A stretch of DNA of 64,000 nt, taken from assembly GCA_031290575.1 (NCBI GenBank), contig JAITNH010000003.1, positions 1 through 64,000 on the forward strand. Reading direction: 5' to 3'. The notes under the pieces were generated by a model. That model was not told the DNA's origin, made no database searches, and saw only the letters and a program-made list of their open reading frames with translations. Shown here in pieces: positions 1 through 26,475 of the stretch. The DNA is from Endomicrobium sp. Its GTDB lineage: Bacteria; Elusimicrobiota; Endomicrobiia; Endomicrobiales; Endomicrobiaceae. Each line of letters begins with the position of its first letter. Position 1 is the first letter of the stretch. The translations under genes were made by a program, and so were the position numbers.

Positions 1-1631
1 AGTATAAAAAATATATTGAAAAGGATGTTGCTTTAGAAAGACGCTTTCAACCAATTTTCGCTGGCGAACCATCTATCGAAGATACTATTACAATTTTAAG
101 AGGTATAAAAGAGAAATACGAAGTGCATCATGGTGTAAAAATAAAAGATTCAGCACTGGTAGCTGCTGCAACATTAAGCGCAAGATATATAACTGATAGA
201 TATCTGCCAGATAAAGCAATAGATTTAATTGACGAATCTGCAAGTAGATTGAGAATAGAAATAGATTCTATGCCTACGGAACTTGATACCGAAGAACGTA
301 AAATCAGACAGCTTGAAATTGAGAAACAAGCTGTAAAAAAGGAAATTGATGTTGCATCAAAAAGCGTTTTGTAAATATAGAAAAAGAGATAGATAAATTA
401 AAACAAAATTTTTTCAAAATGAAAATTCACTGGGAAAAGGAAAAATATTTAATTTCAAAGATTAGACAATTTAAAGCAGAACTTGAATGTATAAAAACTA
501 AAGAGCAGCAAGCTGAAAGGGATGGGGATTTAAATACTGTTGCAGAAATTCGTTATGGAAAAATACCGCAAATGCAAAAACAACTTGAAGAAGAAAATAA
601 AGAACTTCTTAAATTGCAGAAAGAAAAAAAATACTAAGAGAAGAAGTTGGCGAGGAAGATATTGCTGAAATTGTAAGTAAGTGGACAGGAATACCGGTTG
701 TGCGCGTGATTGAGAATGAAACGCAAAAGCTTCTTAAAATGGAAAATAAACTTCATGAAAGAATTGTTGGTCAAGATGAAGCTATATCTGCAGTATCAAA
801 TGCTGTACGACGTTCTCGTTCTGGACTTTCGGATTTCAATAAGCCTATAGGCACATTTTTATTTCTAGGGTCTAACAGGTGTTGGAAAAACTGAATTAGC
901 AAAAGCACTTGCGGAATTGTTGTTTGATGATGAAAAAAATATAGTGAGGATCGATATGTCAGAATATATGGAAAAACATAGTATATCACGCTTCATAGGT
1001 GCTCCTCCTGGGTATATTGGATTTGAAGAAGGTGGACAGTTAACGGAAATCGTAAGAAGAAGACCTTACTGTATAGTTTTATTTGATGAAATTGAAAAAG
1101 CAAATCCAGAAATATTTAATGTTATGCTTCAAATATTTGATGACGGTAGACTTACAGATGGACATGGAAGAACAGTTGACTTTAAAAATACTATTATTAT
1201 AATGACTTCAAATATAGGTTCAGAATATATTCAGAGATACAACGATTATAATGAGATGAAGAATAAAGTTATATATGATATAAATAATTATTTTAGATCT
1301 GAATTTTTAAATAGAAATAATATTTCAAAATTTAAAGGAGCATGAATTAAATAAAATTATAGATATACAAATTAAATCTTTTGAGAATCGTCTTGCTGAG
1401 AAAAAAGTAAATATAGAATTGACAAATAAAGCAAAAGATTTTATCTCATCAAGAGGATATAGTTCTGCTTTCGGAGCTAGATCCTTAAAAAGAGCTATAC
1501 AAATGTATTTGTTAAATCCTCTTTCTTCGAAGCTCATTTCCATGGAATTTAAGGAAGGAGATAGCATTATTATAGACGCTCAAAAGAAAAATATAGATAA
1601 TTTAGAATTTAAAAAGAAATGTATAAATTAA
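1..1631 (+). pseudogene. clpB: ClpB-type AAA+ disaggregase, frameshifted, 5' end outside window
   Basis: Fragments in different frames line up, in order, with the second half of ClpB. They are the end of the first ATPase domain (ALERRF, then DKAIDLIDE near 209-236), the coiled-coil middle domain (about 290-640), the second ATPase domain with a Walker A region near 870-895 and [12 protein letters not shown] near 1085, and the C-terminal small domain (SSRGYSSAFGARSLKRA near 1447-1495). I see frame breaks near 360, 635, 872 (inside Walker A) and 1322, so no full-length protein can be made. The break near 1322 also removes a few residues after LNR. Decay is light: most residues between breaks are still canonical, so inactivation looks recent. 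A second, more eroded copy lies at 17050-18705 on the other strand. ClpC is a less likely identity because of the long middle domain. Confidence 0.88.
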
Positions 1632-4863: not shown

Positions 4864-5916
4864 ATGAAAAAAAAACTTCTACAAATATTCCATAATAAAA
4901 TCGAAAACATTCTTTTCACTAACATAAAAGAAACTTTTTACCTTACAGGTGCAAATTTTGATGGATTTTGGCTTCTATTTGTAAAATGCAAAATACATAT
5001 ATTGTGCTCTAAAATGATCGAAGGTCAAATTAGAGATTTTTTTGTAAACCAAAACATACAAATACATATAGACACCCCTTTTTATCAAACTGTTATAAAA
5101 ATTTTAAAACAAAATAAAATTAATAGAATATTAATTGATCCGAAATATATGAATGCAGCAGATTTTATTTTGATAAACGAAAAATTGAATCAAGAAAAAA
5201 TTAGCATCATAAGAAAGATTAACATTTTAAACAGCCTGCGTATTATAAAAAATGAAGATGAAATTATAAATATAAAAAAATCATGTAGTATTGTGTCTAA
5301 TATATGCAATATAATTAAGAGCGAGCTGAAACCAGGATTATGTGAACTTGATATTCATTATAGAGTATTAGAATTATTCGCTAAAAATCGTGTAACAGAG
5401 AGTTTTACACCTATAATTGCCTCCGGCATAAATTCTGCCAATCCACACCATAAAAGTTCATTCAGAAAAATTACTAAAAATGATATAATAATGATGGATA
5501 TAGGATGTACATATAAAGGATACTGTTCAGATTTGACACGCACTTATTTTTTAGATAGAATAGGTAAAAGTGATGGTCGCAAGATAATTTGGGATACTGT
5601 AAAGCGTTCTCAAGATTGTATTTTGAAAAAAATAAGAGCGGGGTTACGATTATCTTGGGCAGATGAAACTGCGCGAAATATTGTAAAAGAAGCCGGGTAT
5701 GGAGATAGGTTTATTCATAGTACCGGACATGGAATTGGAATAGAAGTTCATGAAATGCCTTCGTTAACTTTGGATGTCGAAGGTGTTTTTTTGCCGTGTA
5801 TGGTAGTTACTATTGAACCAGGAATATATATTGAACAACTGTTTGGTGTAAGAATTGAAGATACGATATTAATAAAGGAAAATGGTTGTGAAATATTGAC
5901 CTTGGCAGCATATTAA
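4864..5916 (+). CDS. M24-family metallopeptidase (Xaa-Pro aminopeptidase-like)
   Basis: Predicted cytosolic aminopeptidase that removes N-terminal residues before proline. The protein is 350 residues. An N-terminal creatinase-like domain (about 1-120) precedes a pita-bread catalytic domain. The five metal ligands of the family are present: D212, D223, H289, E318 and E332, in contexts MDIGCTYKGYCSDLTRTY, HSTGHGIGIEVHE, TIEPGIY and VRIEDT. The ATG at 4864 is chosen because AAGGA lies just upstream; a TTG 51 bases earlier lacks such a signal. It precedes efp by 13 bases, a common pairing in bacteria. Methionine aminopeptidase is excluded by the extra N-terminal domain. Confidence 0.88.
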   Translation: MKKKLLQIFHNKIENILFTNIKETFYLTGANFDGFWLLFVKCKIHILCSKMIEGQIRDFFVNQNIQIHIDTPFYQTVIKILKQNKINRILIDPKYMNAADFILINEKLNQEKISIIRKINILNSLRIIKNEDEIINIKKSCSIVSNICNIIKSELKPGLCELDIHYRVLELFAKNRVTESFTPIIASGINSANPHHKSSFRKITKNDIIMMDIGCTYKGYCSDLTRTYFLDRIGKSDGRKIIWDTVKRSQDCILKKIRAGLRLSWADETARNIVKEAGYGDRFIHSTGHGIGIEVHEMPSLTLDVEGVFLPCMVVTIEPGIYIEQLFGVRIEDTILIKENGCEILTLAAY

Positions 5917-16733: not shown

Positions 16734-16742
16734 TTTAATACA

Positions 16743-16750
16743 CCCCCCCC
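16743..16750 (-). promoter_or_regulatory. Homopolymeric G8 ribosome-binding region of rpsF
   Basis: The mRNA strand reads AGTGGGGGGGGTGTATTAAAATG, shown here only as the G8 at 16743-16750. A run of eight identical G-C pairs is striking in this AT-rich DNA. Slippage could change the Shine-Dalgarno spacing, but no evidence of variation is available. Confidence 0.45.
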
Positions 16751-17049
16751 ACTTTTTATAAATACCTTAAACTCTATGTTCTTCGAAGAACCTAACTGAC
16801 ACATATTACTAACAGAATACCAACACAACTTGAAAGCAGTGCATTATACAAAATAAATATCTTTTTCAAAAATTATGCTTATATTTTATATTTTTACTTC
16901 AAAAATTTTCTTATTGCTAAAGAAACTAACACAAGCAAACCATCAACATTTTTCAAAAATTTACATAACGCCATAAACGTATATAATTCTATTAATATTC
17001 TAATAAATTAAATGTATTAGCCAAATTATACTATTTTTTAAATCTCATA

Positions 17050-18705
17050 CAATTTTTTACTTGCTTAAATTCTTCAGAAATCAATAAATTGGATCATATC
17101 CTTTTGAAAAAATAAAATTTTTTGCCTCATTTGTTAGCTTTACATATATATTTTTTTTACAATACACCTTTCAACAGATTTAATTTAAGTCTACCATCAT
17201 CAAAACAACTGGAGCATAAATATTAAATACTTCAAAGATTTGCTTCTCAATTTCATCAAATAAAACTGCACAATAAGGTCTCCTTCTAACCACTCCGTTA
17301 ACTGTCCTCTTTTTTTCAAATCCAACATATCCCGGAGGAGCTCCTATAAGACATGATACAATACACTATGTTTATATATTGAAGTGTAACTCTTACTAAT
17401 TTTACTATCATTAAACAAAAACTCTACAAAAGTCCTCGCAGGCTCAGTTTTGTAAACACCTTGTAGAACCTAAAAACAAAAAAGGAACCTTATATGGGGC
17501 TGGAATCGGAAAGTCATGAACGAGAACGTCACACTGCATCTGTTACTACAGGATATTGCTTCATCTGACCAATAACCCTTTTTGTGCTTATCTTCCTCCC
17601 CATTCTAAGAAGCTTTATGTATTTCGGATTCATCATACGTGCAAATAGATGCCCCCTGTCCATTTACTTATGATTTGGCAATATCTTTTTTTCATCAGCT
17701 TCTTTTTTAACATTTTTTTCTTTTTTGTAACTCAAAAAGCTTTTTATTTTATTCTTCAAGATTTTTTTTGCGTTTGAAGAATTTTTCCATAACGAATTTC
17801 TGCGACCGTATTTAACCATCATTTTCTTTCAGCTTTTTATTCTTCTTTCATATCTTCAATTTTACCTTAACTGCTCTTATTTCTACAATCAAAAGATCTC
17901 TCATTTTTCGAAATGGGTTTTATTTCAGCAGAATCATGCTTTAATTTGTTTATCTCTTTTTCCATATTCTCGCGACGTTCCTTCGACGCAACACCAGTTT
18001 CTTTCTTTAAAGTTTGTTTTAATTTCAAACGTCTAAGTTTATACTCTAAAACATCAAGCTCCATAGGCATAAAATCTATTTCTATTCTCAATCTACTTGC
18101 AACCTCAACTAAATCTATCACTTTATCAAACAGATATCTATTTATTATATATCTCAAACTCAATTCTATCGCCATAACTAAAAGCTGAATCTTTATCTTT
18201 ACATCATGTGCACTTCATATCTTTTTTTATGCCTCCTAAAATCAAAACAGCATCTTTAATAGTAAACTCGGCAATAAAAAACAGGTCTAATCGTCTTTCT
18301 AATGCAATATCTTTTTTAAGCAGATCTGCACCAACAACGGTATGCAATTCATCAATAAAAAGAATTACTCTTCTAACAACTATTGAATGTTCTTTAAGAA
18401 CAACCTTAAATCTATCTCCAAACCCACCTCTATATTTTGCACCAGCTATCAATGCTCTAATCTAAAACTACAACTTTTTTTATTTTTTAAGCCTTTCCGC
18501 GGGGAACATCCACCCACCCAAAAAATCATACAATATGCCAAACCTTTCACTATAGCAGTTTTGCTACAGAGTTTATCTTATTCCATAAAATGAGTCTATT
18601 TTTCTACATATTGCTAAATCTGTTAAGTCTTTACCACACTTTAACGTCAAATTTGCATATCAGACAAAGCCTCTTGTGATTTAATTATAAATTGGAAAGA
18701 TTCAT
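17050..18705 (-). pseudogene. clpB: Second ClpB-type gene copy, heavily eroded with internal deletions
   Basis: Reading the - strand across frames recovers ClpB landmarks in order. They are an N-terminal start with IKSQEALSDMQ (near 18670-18690), CGKDLTDLA (near 18640), KTAIVKGLAY (near 18550), [15 protein letters not shown] (near 18440), [14 protein letters not shown] (near 18370), then [14 protein letters not shown] (near 18080), a middle-domain stretch, APPGYVGFE (near 17340), [15 protein letters not shown] (near 17280) and LTNEAKNFIFSKGY (near 17110). A complete gene would be about 2.6 kb; here the same span is about 1.65 kb. One loss is visible right after VVGA, where some 40 residues including the pore loop are missing. 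Stops and frameshifts are frequent. It is clearly older than the copy at 1-1631. Confidence 0.82.
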
Positions 18706-19670
18706 AATAATTTCTTCTTTTAACCAAGTGTCTTTAAAATACTTGCACACGTTTATAAATCTTAAACTTATATACAATATCAACACAGCAAAGACTTACT
18801 GAAAATGAATTTTATTCATATAAAAATTTATTAAAGCTTAACATATTCATATAATTCTAACATATAAAATTCGCTATATACGAAAACATAAGTATGCATA
18901 TCTATTATCTCTTCTATATTAAACCTTTCAGCAACAAACCTTAAAATAACATCGTATAGCTAGCTTAAAGATTTTTTTATATGGTCAGGCAATTCATTTT
19001 TTCTATTTTTTACTTCTTGTGTATCACGAGAATGCATCAGAATTTCATCATATTAAAACTTATCAACAGCCATCTTCCCAAAATATTTTTTCTTGCCAAA
19101 AAAAGTTTTTTATCTTTTAATTTTATTCTTTTCAATTTAATGTATCATTAAAGCACAATCTAGACCAATACTCTACAGCTACAGACATATTTTTATATTA
19201 TCAATACGTGCATCATTGCTTTTGAATTTAGAATCGAGAATTAATGAAACACTAGCAACACAAATAATAATTTTTAAATTTTATCATTAGAAACACCATA
19301 ATTCAAATTAAAAAAACATAAATACCATAGAGGGTATCTAATCATAATTTTTAACAAAAAGAAAAATATGTAAAATTTAAAATTATTATGTTCATTGTTT
19401 TCTTGTCTTTTCCAAACAGTGAGACAAATAAGGAATTTGCCACTGTCATCGATTCCCGATAAATACATTTCTTCAAAAGCCTAATCCTAAAATTGATTTA
19501 TGATTGTTTTATTTCACTGTTTTCTCTTACAAAAAAATCAAAATCACTTACAAACTTAATACTTATACTTATTAAAACATAAATATTTTATACTCAAAAC
19601 ACCTATACATTATTATGCTTGCTTATATTATGCCAAAATCAACATTATCCCCAAAACAAACATATAAATT
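18706..19670. other. Decayed, gene-free stretch upstream of the clpB remnant
   Basis: No intact gene is seen. On the - strand near 18960-19080 there is a protein-like stretch interrupted by stops (fragments KMAVDKF, YDEILMHSRDTQEVKNRK, LPDHIKKSL) that I cannot assign. The remainder is AT-rich with dense stops. It is most likely further pseudogene residue. Confidence 0.5.
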
Positions 19671-20818: not shown

Positions 20819-22375
20819 TCAATGCTTGAAATGACGCATTCCAGTTATCAACATGGCCATATTTCTATCATCCGCAGCTTGAATTGACTCATTATCTTTT
20901 ATTGAACCTCCAGGCTGTATTATTGCAGTCACACCTATTTTAAAAGATTCTTTAACAACATCAGGGAACGGAAAAAAAGCATCTGATGACAAAACAAGGG
21001 GAAATATTTTTTCATCTAATCCATGTTTAACATTTTTCATTTTTTCTGCTGCTATTTTTAATGAATCAATGCGACTCATTTGACCAGCGCCCACTCCCAC
21101 AGTCTGTCTGCCTCTTACAAGGACAATAGCATTAGATTTAACATATTTTGAAATTTTCCATGCGAAATCCAAGCTATCATTTTCTTTCCTTGTGGTTTGG
21201 CGTTTTGTTATAAGCTTTGTTCCAATCAAAAGTCGAGTATCCATATTTTGTACAAGCATTCCACAAGATATCATCTTATACTCAATAACATTTTTTTCTT
21301 CTTTATACGGTTTTTTTTGTATTAGAAGTCGAATGTTTTTTTTCTTCATTAAAATATGCAATGCCTTCTTAGAATAATCTGGAGCTATTACACATTCAGC
21401 AAATAATTTGCTAATTTCTAAAGCACTGTCTTCTTCAATAGGCTTATTACAAGCCACCACGGCTCCGAAAGCACTAATAGGATCACAACTTAACGCTTTC
21501 AAATAAGCATCTTTTACATTAATATTTTCAGCACACCCACAAGGATTATTATGTTTAATAATGGCACATACTGGATTATCAAACTCATGTACTAAACGCC
21601 ATGCAACATCCAAATCAAGATAATTATTATATGATAATTCTTTACCATGCATCTGTTTTGCAGATATTACTGCTGTATTGTCAAGTTCTATATTGTTTGA
21701 ATACACAGCAGCGTCCTGATGAGGATTTTCACCATACCTCAATTCCGAAATTTTTTTCAATGGAACTACAACTTGCATGGGAAACTTCTCATAATTTAAA
21801 TAAGTTGAAATTAAAGAATCATAATACGCCGTATAACAAAAAGCTTTTGCTGCTAAATTTAATCGGAAATCTTGCGTAATAGAACTATTTTTTAGATTTT
21901 CAATAATAGAGCCATAATCGTTCACATTAGATATAACAATTACATCTTTATAATTTTTTGCTGCCGCTCTCAAAAGGGCCACTCCACCTATATCTATGTT
22001 TTCTATAACATCCTGAATTATATTTTTATCTTCTGGTTTTGGTATTTTCTTTATCATTTCTTCAAAAGGATACAAATTTACAACAACCATATCTACTGTA
22101 GATATATTATGATGTTTCAATTCTTGAATATGATCTTCTTTGTTTCTAACTGCAAGAATTCCAGCATGAATTTTTGGATTTAATGTCTTAACCCTGCCAT
22201 CCAAAATTTCCGGGAATCCAGTAACATCAGATATTTCTTGGCAATTAATAGAGTTTTTTTTCAATATTCTAGCAGTGCCACTGCTAGAAATTATATTCCA
22301 ATTAAAAGCTTTTAATTCTTTTGCAAAATCTACTATTCCAGTTTTGTCTGATACACTAAGCAATGCTGTTGCCAT
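20819..22375 (-). CDS. purH: Bifunctional AICAR formyltransferase / IMP cyclohydrolase
   Basis: Last two steps of de novo IMP synthesis. The 518-residue protein has an N-terminal cyclohydrolase domain (about 1-195; SVSDKTGIVDFAKEL, TLNPKIHAGILA, NLYPFEE) and a C-terminal transformylase domain with RYGENPHQDAAVY, IKHNNPCGCAEN and LSSDAFFPFPD. The second ATG (22375) is chosen because GAGGAA is spaced properly before it; the first ATG at 22381 abuts that sequence. It stands alone, away from the main purine genes at 51-64 kb. A 23-base palindrome lies inside the gene (22267-22289). Confidence 0.96.
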   Translation of the reverse strand: MATALLSVSDKTGIVDFAKELKAFNWNIISSSGTARILKKNSINCQEISDVTGFPEILDGRVKTLNPKIHAGILAVRNKEDHIQELKHHNISTVDMVVVNLYPFEEMIKKIPKPEDKNIIQDVIENIDIGGVALLRAAAKNYKDVIVISNVNDYGSIIENLKNSSITQDFRLNLAAKAFCYTAYYDSLISTYLNYEKFPMQVVVPLKKISELRYGENPHQDAAVYSNNIELDNTAVISAKQMHGKELSYNNYLDLDVAWRLVHEFDNPVCAIIKHNNPCGCAENINVKDAYLKALSCDPISAFGAVVACNKPIEEDSALEISKLFAECVIAPDYSKKALHILMKKKNIRLLIQKKPYKEEKNVIEYKMISCGMLVQNMDTRLLIGTKLITKRQTTRKENDSLDFAWKISKYVKSNAIVLVRGRQTVGVGAGQMSRIDSLKIAAEKMKNVKHGLDEKIFPLVLSSDAFFPFPDVVKESFKIGVTAIIQPGGSIKDNESIQAADDRNMAMLITGMRHFKH

Positions 22376-22594
22376 AACCATTTCCTCATTTTTAAATAGA
22401 AATATTCTTTATACTACAAATCCTTTATCGTACACAGAGAGAAGACCCCCTCACCCTATTATTCATCTCATATTTTTTTAATATTTAAATTCTAACAACT
22501 TCGAAAAATATTTTTTCTATTTTTACAAATATTACCAGATTCATTAATACAATAATCGTAAAACAAATAGACTATTTATAGAACACTTTTACTA

Positions 22595-23641
22595 TTAATA
22601 GCTAATTAATTCATAATCTCTGCTGCCAAGATCAAGTTTTTCTGCATATCTCAGCTGTATTGTTGAATCAATCTCAGGATATATTTCTTTAAAGAAATTC
22701 ATTCCAAAAGCTTTATTTATCAAATCTAAACTTGCTTGATCAACAGCTACAGGATCAACACCAGCAATAATTCCAACATCAGGCATAAGAGGCATATTTT
22801 TGGGCAAAGAAAAACAATCACAAAACTTACTTATATGATTCAGGAAACTTATATACCCGCTTTTTTTATTCTTTAGAACCCCAGCAGCATGTTCAACTAT
22901 TTTTTCCTGAACTGTTAAAGAATTTTCATCCCACTTTAATCCAAATACATTAGATATGCAATTCACTATACATTGGCCACAGCCAACACACTTTTCCTTA
23001 TCCATGACTATTTTGTTATTAACAAGTGATAACGCTTGTTGATAACAAAATTTAACACAATTGCAACAACCAACACAACGCTCAAGATTTACCGTAGGTT
23101 TTGAAGAATTATGCATAGCGTACTTGGCTGCTTTACTTCCGCAACCCATACCTATGTTTTTTAAAACTCCACCAAATCCTGATATTTCATGACCTTTAAA
23201 ATGACTCATAAACATAAATCCATCTGCGTTATATATTTCATGGGCTATTGCAACCGCTTGAAAATGTTTTAAATTAACATCAACTTTTACCTCAGCATTA
23301 CCTTTTAATCCATCTGCAATAATAATCGGACATCCACATTTATCAATACTAAAACCATGTTTATTTGCAATGAGAAGATGATGATAAGCATCAGATCGTT
23401 TCCCAACATAAATTGTACTGGCATCAGTTAAAAAAGGATATCCTGCCTTTTCTCTAATAATTTTTACAACTGGCAGTACATATTCAGGTTTAATATATCC
23501 CTCATTGTTTTCTTCGCCAAAATGCATTTTTATTGCTATAAAATTTTTTGATTTCACATGAGTAAAAATGCTCGTTATCTTTAAAAAACTATATAGCTCA
23601 TCTCTTCTGTTCCAAGGAAGAAAATATACTTTCCCTGCCAT
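22595..23641 (-). CDS. DUF362-family protein with two [4Fe-4S] ferredoxin motifs
   Basis: The 348-residue protein has a DUF362 body (KNFIAIKMHFGEENNEGYI, GVLKNIGMGCGSKAAK) with an inserted two-cluster ferredoxin segment: CVGCCNCVKFC and CVGCGQCIVNC. The function of this family is unknown; a role in electron transfer or in handling metal cofactors has been assumed from the clusters. The ATG at 23641 is chosen because GTGAGGT lies upstream; an upstream frame of 15 codons has no family similarity. It is 12 bases downstream of the RluA-like gene's end region on the same strand order lipA side. Probably cytosolic, as no signal peptide is seen. Confidence 0.85.
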   Translation of the reverse strand: MAGKVYFLPWNRRDELYSFLKITSIFTHVKSKNFIAIKMHFGEENNEGYIKPEYVLPVVKIIREKAGYPFLTDASTIYVGKRSDAYHHLLIANKHGFSIDKCGCPIIIADGLKGNAEVKVDVNLKHFQAVAIAHEIYNADGFMFMSHFKGHEISGFGGVLKNIGMGCGSKAAKYAMHNSSKPTVNLERCVGCCNCVKFCYQQALSLVNNKIVMDKEKCVGCGQCIVNCISNVFGLKWDENSLTVQEKIVEHAAGVLKNKKSGYISFLNHISKFCDCFSLPKNMPLMPDVGIIAGVDPVAVDQASLDLINKAFGMNFFKEIYPEIDSTIQLRYAEKLDLGSRDYELISY

Positions 23642-23697: not shown

Positions 23698-24420
23698 TTA
23701 GCTTCCGTATTTACAAAGTTGTTTTAATGTGATTTTAAAATCTTTTGGCAACGACACTTCAAAGATTTTTTCTTCATTACTTCCTGGCAATGTTAATGTT
23801 AATGCAACTGCATGAAGAGAAAGTCTTGAAATAAGTGGCTTTTCTAATTTTCCACTTTTAAATTTATAACCATGCTTAAGATCTGATAAAATTATAGGAT
23901 TGGAAGTGCCGTATTCACTATCTATTGCTAAAGGATGTCCAAGGCTCCAAAAATGTACTCTTATCTGATCCTTTCTTCCTGTAAGAAGCAAAATCTGAAC
24001 CAAAGTATAACTTCTAAAACGTTTTAAAATTTTAAAACTAGTTACTGACGCTCTGCCTTTCACTATATCAGCAGATACATTATTTCTGACAGAAATAAGA
24101 ATTGGTTTATTTATTGTGCCTTTGTCTTCTTCTAAAACACCCGATACCAAAGCAATGTATTTTTTACAAACTTTCGAATTTTCAAACTGCAATCTTATAT
24201 CTCTATAGGCCTGTAAATTCTTTGCAAATACTAAAACACCGGTGGTATCACGATTTATACTATGAATCACCCATACATTCTGCTTTAGCTGTTTCTTCAG
24301 CATACCAGCAAGCGTTTGATTCTCGCGGACACCTAGAGCTGAGATAACAGAAATCCCACTTCTTTTGTTTACAACTACAATATTTTTATCTTCATAAATT
24401 ATATCTATTTCTTTTTTCAT
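23698..24420 (-). CDS. RluA-family pseudouridine synthase homologue, catalytic Asp replaced by Asn
   Basis: The 240-residue sequence aligns throughout with RluA-type 23S rRNA or tRNA pseudouridine synthases: IIYEDKNIVVVNK at the start, YIALVSGVL, LLTGRKDQIRVHFWSLGHPLAIDSEYG, and LHAVALTLTLP near the end. The catalytic motif, HRLDxxTSG in the family, reads HSINRDTTG here, so the catalytic Asp is Asn (codon at 24253-24255) and the preceding Arg is Ser. The adjoining NKPxG motif is also altered (NKRSG). The frame is otherwise intact. Either it is a very recent loss of function or it has another, perhaps RNA-binding, role. Start: the ATG at 24420; an upstream TTG is weaker. Confidence 0.85.
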   Translation of the reverse strand: MKKEIDIIYEDKNIVVVNKRSGISVISALGVRENQTLAGMLKKQLKQNVWVIHSINRDTTGVLVFAKNLQAYRDIRLQFENSKVCKKYIALVSGVLEEDKGTINKPILISVRNNVSADIVKGRASVTSFKILKRFRSYTLVQILLLTGRKDQIRVHFWSLGHPLAIDSEYGTSNPIILSDLKHGYKFKSGKLEKPLISRLSLHAVALTLTLPGSNEEKIFEVSLPKDFKITLKQLCKYGS

Positions 24421-24471: not shown

Positions 24472-26475
24472 TCATATGGTTGCTTTATTGATTTTAACAA
24501 GTTTCTCAAATTCTTTCTCATAAAGAATGCTTATACCTAACTCTTTAGCTCTTTCAAATTTTGAACCAACATTTGCACCTACAAGAATATAATCAATATT
24601 TTTGCTTACAGAAAAAGCAATTTTACCACCAAAAGAACTTATAATTTCACAAGCTTGTTCTCTCGTATAATTTTCAAGCTCTCCAGTTAAAACAAACGTT
24701 TTATTTTCAAACAATGTCAATAATTGGACAGTTTCAGGCTCAAGCATATTTACACCTGCAACAATAAGAGCATTCACAATATTGCGAACGTTTTTATTTT
24801 CAAAAAATTCTTTTAAAGATAATGCCAAAACCTCGCCAATTCCTGGAATTTTTATAAAATCTTCAATTCTAGCATTAAATAAAAACTCCATATTTCTAAA
24901 TCTATTTGCAATTATCATTGAGGCTTTTTCACCTATATGACGTATTCCTAAAGCGAATAACAATCTATATAAAGGCTGTTTCTTACTCTCAACAATACTT
25001 TTCAGAAGGATATTTGTTTTTTTTTCTTTAAATAGATTCAAAACAATAAAATCGTCATAAGTTAAACTATAGATATCTGCAAGAGTTTGTATTTTTTTCT
25101 TTTCAAGCAACTGATCTATTAATATTTTACCAAAACCATTAATATCCATTGCATTTCTGCTTACAAAATGTATTAAATGTCCTCTAAATTGTGCAGAACA
25201 TTCTGGATTAACACATCTATATGCAACTTCTTTAATTCCTTTAACAATTAAACCATTGCACGACGGGCAAATAGTTGGAGGTTTAAAAAAACCTTTTTCT
25301 CTTTTTTTTATAACTTTTACTATTTTTGGGATAACATCACCTGCACGTTCTATTAAAACAACATCGCCTTCATTAACATTAAGTCGTTCGATTTCTTTAA
25401 AATTATGAAGCGTTGCATGAGATATGGTAACACCTGCAAGTATAAAAGGATCAAGGAGTGCGGACGGTGTTACTATTCCACTACGTCCAACCTGCATTTG
25501 AATTTTATTTAATCTTGTTGTTGCTTGTTTTGCGGGAAATTTAAATGCTATAGCCCACCTGGGACTTTTATTAGTATACCCCAATTCATTTTGCAACAAT
25601 AAGCTATTTACTTTAATTACAAGACCGTCGATCTCATATTGTAATGAATCTCTTTTGACCAACATAATATCTATAAAATCTACTATTTTCTCTAAAGAAT
25701 TACATATCTTAAAATCATTTTGCACTAGAAACCCGCACTCTTTGCAATATTTCAAGAAGTCAGACTGTTTTTGAAATCGCTTACCATCAATTCTGGCAAA
25801 TGAATGTCCAAAAAAACTAAGTTTTCTTTTAGAGGTAATTTGTATATCTTTATGTCTCAAAGAACCAGAAGCAGCATTTCTAGAATTAGCAAATTTTTGT
25901 GCATTCGCTTTAATCATATCTTCATTCATTTTTTTGAAGTTATATTTAGATATATATACTTCACCTCGAAGCTCAAAAAAAATCGGAGGAGGAATTATTT
26001 TAAGCTTATGCGGAATATCTTGAATCACTTTAATGTTTTCAGTTATATCTTCACCAATCTCGCCATCACCACGAGTTGCACCTGTAATCAAATTACCATA
26101 TGAATAAATTAAATTTGCACTTACGCCATCAATTTTTGGCTCAACAATAAATTCAATATTATCAGTATTCAATTTTTTCATAATTCTTTCGTGCCATTTT
26201 GCCATTTCCTCATAAGAATAAGTATTGTCTAATGAAAGCATTGGTAAGGAATGTTTAACTTGCTTAAAAGCTGACAATACGAAACCTGATACTTTTCGCG
26301 TAGGAGAATTTAACGATATAAAAAAAGTATTTTTTATTTCAAGATTCTCAAGCTCTTTTACAAGACCATCATATTCACCATCAGATATTTCAGAATCATT
26401 TTTAACATAATAAAGATTATTGTGTCTTGTAATTTCTTTTCTTAAATACTCAATACGATGCTGAATATTTTTCAT
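24472..26475 (-). CDS. ligA: NAD-dependent DNA ligase
   Basis: Seals nicks in replication and repair using NAD. The 667 residues show the complete domain order: Ia domain (YYVKNDSEISDGEYD), the nucleotidyltransferase with the adenylated Lys in EPKIDGVSA, the OB fold with GDVVLIERAGDVIPKI, the zinc finger (CPSCNGLI and RCVNPECSAQF), helix-hairpin-helix motifs (ALGIRHIGEKAS, IPGIGEVLA) and a C-terminal BRCT domain (FVLTGELENYTREQA). Length matches E. coli LigA (671). It looks functional. Confidence 0.97.
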   Translation of the reverse strand: MKNIQHRIEYLRKEITRHNNLYYVKNDSEISDGEYDGLVKELENLEIKNTFFISLNSPTRKVSGFVLSAFKQVKHSLPMLSLDNTYSYEEMAKWHERIMKKLNTDNIEFIVEPKIDGVSANLIYSYGNLITGATRGDGEIGEDITENIKVIQDIPHKLKIIPPPIFFELRGEVYISKYNFKKMNEDMIKANAQKFANSRNAASGSLRHKDIQITSKRKLSFFGHSFARIDGKRFQKQSDFLKYCKECGFLVQNDFKICNSLEKIVDFIDIMLVKRDSLQYEIDGLVIKVNSLLLQNELGYTNKSPRWAIAFKFPAKQATTRLNKIQMQVGRSGIVTPSALLDPFILAGVTISHATLHNFKEIERLNVNEGDVVLIERAGDVIPKIVKVIKKREKGFFKPPTICPSCNGLIVKGIKEVAYRCVNPECSAQFRGHLIHFVSRNAMDINGFGKILIDQLLEKKKIQTLADIYSLTYDDFIVLNLFKEKKTNILLKSIVESKKQPLYRLLFALGIRHIGEKASMIIANRFRNMEFLFNARIEDFIKIPGIGEVLALSLKEFFENKNVRNIVNALIVAGVNMLEPETVQLLTLFENKTFVLTGELENYTREQACEIISSFGGKIAFSVSKNIDYILVGANVGSKFERAKELGISILYEKEFEKLVKINKATI

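Follow-up and report, generated by a model that had tools for sequence, protein, structure and literature searches.

The window analysed here is a stretch of 64,000 nucleotides from a draft Endomicrobium genome of 409,366 bases in 7 contigs, which is rated 34% complete. The Endomicrobium group has been described from the guts of termites and the flagellates living there, according to the part of the literature consulted (PMC8809381). A short gene of the RluA family, lacking an S4 domain, can be found on the minus strand at 23698..24420 (240 codons plus stop). It is recognised as an open reading frame with matches to PF00849 and TIGR00005. The frame runs from an in-frame ATG at 24418-24420 to the stop at 23698, and an alternative TTG start two codons upstream of the ATG would give a 242-residue version of the protein. 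All conserved neighbours lie on the same strand and are supported by synteny: ligA, coding for the NAD-dependent DNA ligase, upstream (24472..26475; NF005932, 775.9 bits), and downstream a gene for a DUF362/4Fe-4S protein (22595..23641; PF04015, 134.5 bits, with Fer4), followed by purH (20819..22381; NF002049, 671.5 bits).

The PseudoU_synth_2 domain (PF00849) is matched at 93.5 bits against a cut-off of 26.8, from model position 1 to 150 of 152, and this match over the whole domain length places the protein in the RluA family. Its score against the NCBIfam model of the RluA subfamily (TIGR00005) is 169.1 bits, below the curated cut-off of 192.7; the match begins at model position 70, the N-terminal part of the model being absent from the short protein. 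The predicted structure has a mean pLDDT of 90.7 and a pTM of 0.88, with an intact pseudouridine synthase fold. In Foldseek comparisons its best match is RluC (1xpi; E 7e-21, TM 0.80/0.84), and it also matches RluA (2i82; TM 0.77/0.86) and the crystal structure of RluD. The intact frame and fold over 240 residues described in the first-pass annotation are thus recovered, and the open reading frame rules out a wrong frame or a split gene.

As to other RluA-family paralogues, the same genome harbors a second PF00849 gene, in which the HRLDKNTTG motif is intact and an S4 domain is present. It is RluD-like by its best equivalog score, which is below the cut-off of that model. A search of the genome for TruA and TruB gave no hits, which says little for a genome rated 34% complete. 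Scans of the window for tRNAs and Rfam families return three tRNAs only. Two broken ClpB-type genes are also present in the window, at 17213-18497 (minus strand) and 3-1595 (plus strand), with TIGR03346 matches in several frames and many stops; apart from the former remnant, the stretch 16734-19670 has no long open reading frame.

The active site departs from the family at several separate codons, all on the minus strand. The catalytic motif of the window protein reads HSINRDTTG (H53, S54, I55, N56 onwards) and aligns without gaps, which rules out a misaligned motif. The catalytic Asp is replaced by Asn at codon 56 (AAT, 24253..24255), where the other 33 orthologues have GAT (20) or GAC (13), and the base-flipping Arg by Ser at codon 54 (AGT, 24259..24261; Arg in 24/33 orthologues). 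At codon 20 (AGA, 24361..24363), Arg stands for the Pro of NKPxG, giving NKRSG (Pro in 26/33). The reading of these three codons bears out the substitutions that the first-pass annotation had reported. Two further departures can be added, namely Asn for Lys at codon 48 (AAT, 24277..24279; Lys in 33/33) and Asp for the His of TGRxHQIR at codon 151 (GAT, 23968..23970; His in 27/33), giving TGRKDQIR. The conserved Tyr88 and the motif-III Arg154 are retained, each being present in 33/33 of the other orthologues. Compared with RluA-family synthases such as E. coli RluA and TruC and the catalytic domains of RluC and RluD, the fold, the domain, the motif order, the Tyr and the motif-III Arg are therefore shared, while Asp is changed to Asn, Arg to Ser, NKP to NKR and RxHQIR to RKDQIR.

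The mutant data reported in the consulted part of one study bear directly on these changes: mutation of the catalytic Asp abolishes the activity of TruA, TruB, RluA and RsuA, RluA is inactive when Met or Lys replaces the flipping Arg, and RluB with Ala at this position retains 0.6% activity (PMC3919597). Because both the Asp and the flipping Arg are gone and such mutants of characterized enzymes fail, the window protein should not isomerise uridine. The absence of pseudouridine synthase activity proposed from the first reading is in this respect a strong and well-supported prediction, given that the Asp mutants of four synthases are dead (PMC3919597).

Regarding the distribution of these residues, a query with the single protein gave no matches against the contigs of the named genomes, and a query with alignment A1 gave 38 loci in Endomicrobium, Endomicrobiellum and Endomicrobiia records. 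Of these, 33 (L105-L137) were used as orthologues; L138, L140, L141 and L142 (outside the genus) and L139 (a broken copy) were dropped. The window protein is 51-69% identical to the other genus copies. Many relatives share the order ligA, short gene, DUF362, purH; the genus copies are considered orthologues because this order is conserved, and the same synteny rules out a paralogue taken for an orthologue. Position 56 is Asp in 33/33 named orthologues, which answers the comparison with related genomes proposed at the outset, and also in 26/26 other rows of alignment A1 (mostly from the same genomes as the 33), in five short homologues outside the genus and in 36 RluD-type copies. Asn56 is accordingly found in 1/34 orthologues, and in one of the 26 genomes of the genus with an open gene; the nearest relatives compared are only 69% identical, and closer ones could alter this picture.

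Sister lineages of the window can be named from its neighbour: on the ligA tree it is sister to L108 (Ca. Endomicrobiellum dinenymphae, HRIDRDTTG) and L111 (Ca. Endomicrobiellum pyrsonymphae, HRIDRDATG), with support of 99/88, and the same placement has a bootstrap of 79% in the tree of a 14-taxon set. In a 15-taxon set without L108 and L111 the window falls next to L125 at 72%, and the tree of the short protein leaves it unplaced. Since Asp is kept in all orthologues, including these best-supported sisters, the loss of Asp is, as judged from the sequences compared, private to the window's own branch.

The flipping Arg is more variable. It is replaced in 9/33 of the other orthologues (Ile in 3, Lys in 3, Ser, Met and Asn in 1 each), which corresponds to about four changes on the tree, the window included. 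Asp56, Tyr88 and Arg154 are intact in all nine. By the mutant data, orthologues with Lys, Met or Ile for Arg are predicted to be impaired, and this prediction is in conflict with their kept Asp (PMC3919597, as consulted in part). In a clade of five species (L133-L137) the Arg is replaced by Met, Ile, Ser, Ile and Asn, respectively, with the Asp kept, and most members have also lost part of RxHQIR in motif III. For L133, L134 and L136 the omega of the short gene is 0.58 against 0.12-0.20 for the three neighbours (pairwise 0.38-0.58), and for the pair L135-L137 it is 0.076. In the isolate Hm464_bin172 the short gene is present twice, as diverged copies (L131 and L132), both with Lys for Arg and both followed by DUF362, with a pairwise omega of 0.125. 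Arg-less copies can thus be either relaxed or constrained, given values of 0.58 in some and 0.076-0.125 in others.

Across the genus, an open short gene can be found in 26 of 41 genomes (27 copies, G006 having two). Among the 15 genomes without it, two have broken remnants, with 7 stops in the main match in G017 and a fragment with 5 stops in G002. In five others (G001, G005, G013, G026 and G061) just 107-282 nt separate the match to ligA from that to DUF362; this is too little to accommodate the gene, which is therefore truly gone. The other eight have no full DUF362 match, G007 and G021 also being without ligA, and represent either a draft gap or a deletion. Presence and absence on the ligA tree can be explained by 2 changes, a figure that does not fix the number of independent losses. 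The short RluA-family gene is plainly dispensable in the genus, given the members in which it is absent or broken.

The neighbouring genes also vary among relatives. In Ca. Endomicrobiellum siamense (L137) the DUF362 match, starting from about position 5699, is in five pieces, which suggests that this gene is frameshifted. In four small genomes (G016, G028, G030 and G033; L174-L177) the match to ligA stops at around residue 579-593 of 667, and the open frames code for 570-587 amino acids. The C-terminal part of the ligase, which we take to be the BRCT domain, seems to have been lost in these genomes.

Selection on the window branch was estimated with codon models written for this analysis rather than with a published program. 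Two taxon sets, comprising 15 and 14 of the 34 orthologues, were used, limited by the loci having neighbours; the 14-taxon set also omits by choice the L133-L137 clade, L122, L126 and L128. With 15 taxa, the window branch has an omega of 0.150, compared with 0.125 for the rest of the tree, and imposing an omega of 1 costs 17.1 lnL units. With the 14 taxa including the sisters, the values are 0.166 and 0.118, at a cost of 19.8 lnL units. All omega values on this branch are rough, as its synonymous changes are almost saturated, at about 3.5 neutral changes per codon. Twice the lnL difference between window and rest is 0.5-1.6. On the same branch omega is 0.087 and 0.099 for ligA, 0.043 and 0.058 for DUF362 and 0.084 for purH. 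The share of the protein tree taken by the window is similar among the genes: with 15 taxa it is 14.8% in the short gene, compared with 16.0% in ligA, 15.5% in DUF362 and 14.6% in purH, and in the 14-taxon set (without purH) it is 20.2% in the short gene, compared with 17.9% in ligA and 19.0% in DUF362. A fast-decaying pseudogene over the branch as a whole is ruled out by these shares, which are like those of the neighbours, and by the omega of 0.15-0.17.

Changes at otherwise invariant sites amount to 6/77 in the short gene, 20/286 in ligA, 24/260 in purH and 12/188 in DUF362, and no excess was found in the short gene relative to these three. Nor was a concentration of changes found in the family core when looked for: positions conserved family-wide changed in 5/53 cases against 25/116 for the others (p 0.08), i.e., they are kept at least equally well. 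With a model in which constraint is followed by neutrality, the preferred length of the neutral tail is between 0 and about 0.1 changes per codon. When the absence of stops is also counted, using for the 14-taxon set the rate computed for the 15-taxon set, a tail above about 0.22-0.27 (roughly 9-11% of the branch) is disfavoured by two lnL units. Neither the disrupted frame nor the neutral evolution that would define a pseudogene is therefore seen, with room for a neutral tail of up to about a tenth of the branch. Selection acted on the short gene for most of its branch, and as a consequence either the loss is recent or the protein has kept a use.

Between these two, the best reading, with a probability of about 0.7, is that a dispensable paralogue in an eroding genome has recently lost its function. 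This reading is favoured because the gene is dispensable, the loss of Asp is private, the genome is eroding and the counterparts in relatives are broken or deleted. In such a case, the stand-alone RluA-family synthase of Endomicrobium would be a dispensable paralogue caught shortly after the loss of catalysis. Selection on the modification would have been lifted in the window lineage, after which R54S, D56N, P20R and H151D would have become fixed at the active site. The frame has so far acquired no stop or frameshift, whereas in relatives this locus has already been reduced to a broken remnant or deleted cleanly. The protein would still fold as a pseudouridine synthase and may have retained RNA binding. 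Pseudogenes and genome reduction toward intracellular life are described for Endomicrobium in the part of the source consulted (PMC8809381); the eroding genes of these endosymbionts provide the same setting, except that the frame of the window gene is still open. The lack of any sign of decay beyond single residues is a point against this reading. Both the recency of the loss and the lack of function are what we infer as likely.

The main alternative is that the protein is retained without catalysis, its fold being selected as an RNA-binding chaperone or as an assembly factor for ribosomes or tRNAs. The open frame, the confident fold prediction, the low branch-average omega and the kept core positions are all consistent with such a role. 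From what could be consulted of the respective sources, E. coli TruA and RluA can still bind their substrates when catalytically inactive (PMC7822408), and for TruB the loss of substrate binding harms growth more than the loss of pseudouridylation (PMC9481147). There is also precedent in the RluA family for the loss of the catalytic Asp: human RPUSD3 has Gly in its place and persists in vertebrates, with no noticeable activity in cells mentioned in the part of the source consulted (PMC12716993). It resembles the window protein in being a family member with a replaced Asp, and differs from it in that the change is Asp to Gly in vertebrates rather than Asp to Asn in one bacterial genome (PMC12716993). 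In trypanosomatids, mitoribosome assembly proteins of the mt-LAF3 type (6yxx, 7aoi and 7am2) have the same fold and sit inside the assembling large subunit; these are distant (18-20% identity) and eukaryotic, and the likeness to the window protein is one of fold only. A literature search restricted to open-licence titles and openings of abstracts returned no natural Asp-less RluA-family protein in Endomicrobium or other bacteria. Against a retained role, a dead form conserved across species is not observed, and persistence after the loss cannot be demonstrated from Asn56 in a single genome. Moreover, the nine Arg-less orthologues keep the Asp, the Tyr and the motif-III Arg, as if catalysis were selected. 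Other members of the genus lack the gene or have it in broken form; for this reason, the balance leans toward a gene on its way out rather than a retained dead enzyme, and a non-catalytic role is judged unlikely. It would be a rather improbable extension of this idea that the window protein is a bacterial pseudoenzyme selected for RNA chaperoning or ribosome assembly and marking the end point of a genus-wide trend of Arg loss, for which the basis is that 9/33 of the other orthologues are already Arg-less, some of them under strong constraint.

It is very unlikely that the Asp codon was misread in sequencing or assembly, or that it comes from a minor strain variant. The genome is a draft in 7 contigs rated 34% complete, and AAT differs from GAT by a single base; on the other hand, Arg54, Pro20, His151 and Lys48 are changed too, at separate codons in an otherwise clean frame, and the codon of the sister lineages is GAC, two bases away from AAT. 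Residual or restored catalysis, by deamidation of Asn56 to Asp or by substitution of another acidic residue such as Asp151, is hardly credible: its one supporting point is that the new Asp151 sits in the conserved motif III, whereas Asn-Arg is not a fast-deamidating pair and the flipping Arg is also missing. The Asp mutants of four pseudouridine synthases, as described in the part of the source consulted, are dead as well (PMC3919597).

An annotation based on the domain only would label the window protein an active synthase. Most likely it is not a novel kind of protein, and instead marks an early step in gene loss of the ordinary sort. If the loss is indeed recent, the gene would represent a snapshot of early gene loss, in which the active site goes first and the frame later, and the locus offers open, broken and deleted states for comparison within one genus. 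If selection has instead kept the protein, bacteria would have their own equivalent of RPUSD3, and the roles of these synthases beyond catalysis could be tested on a natural example.
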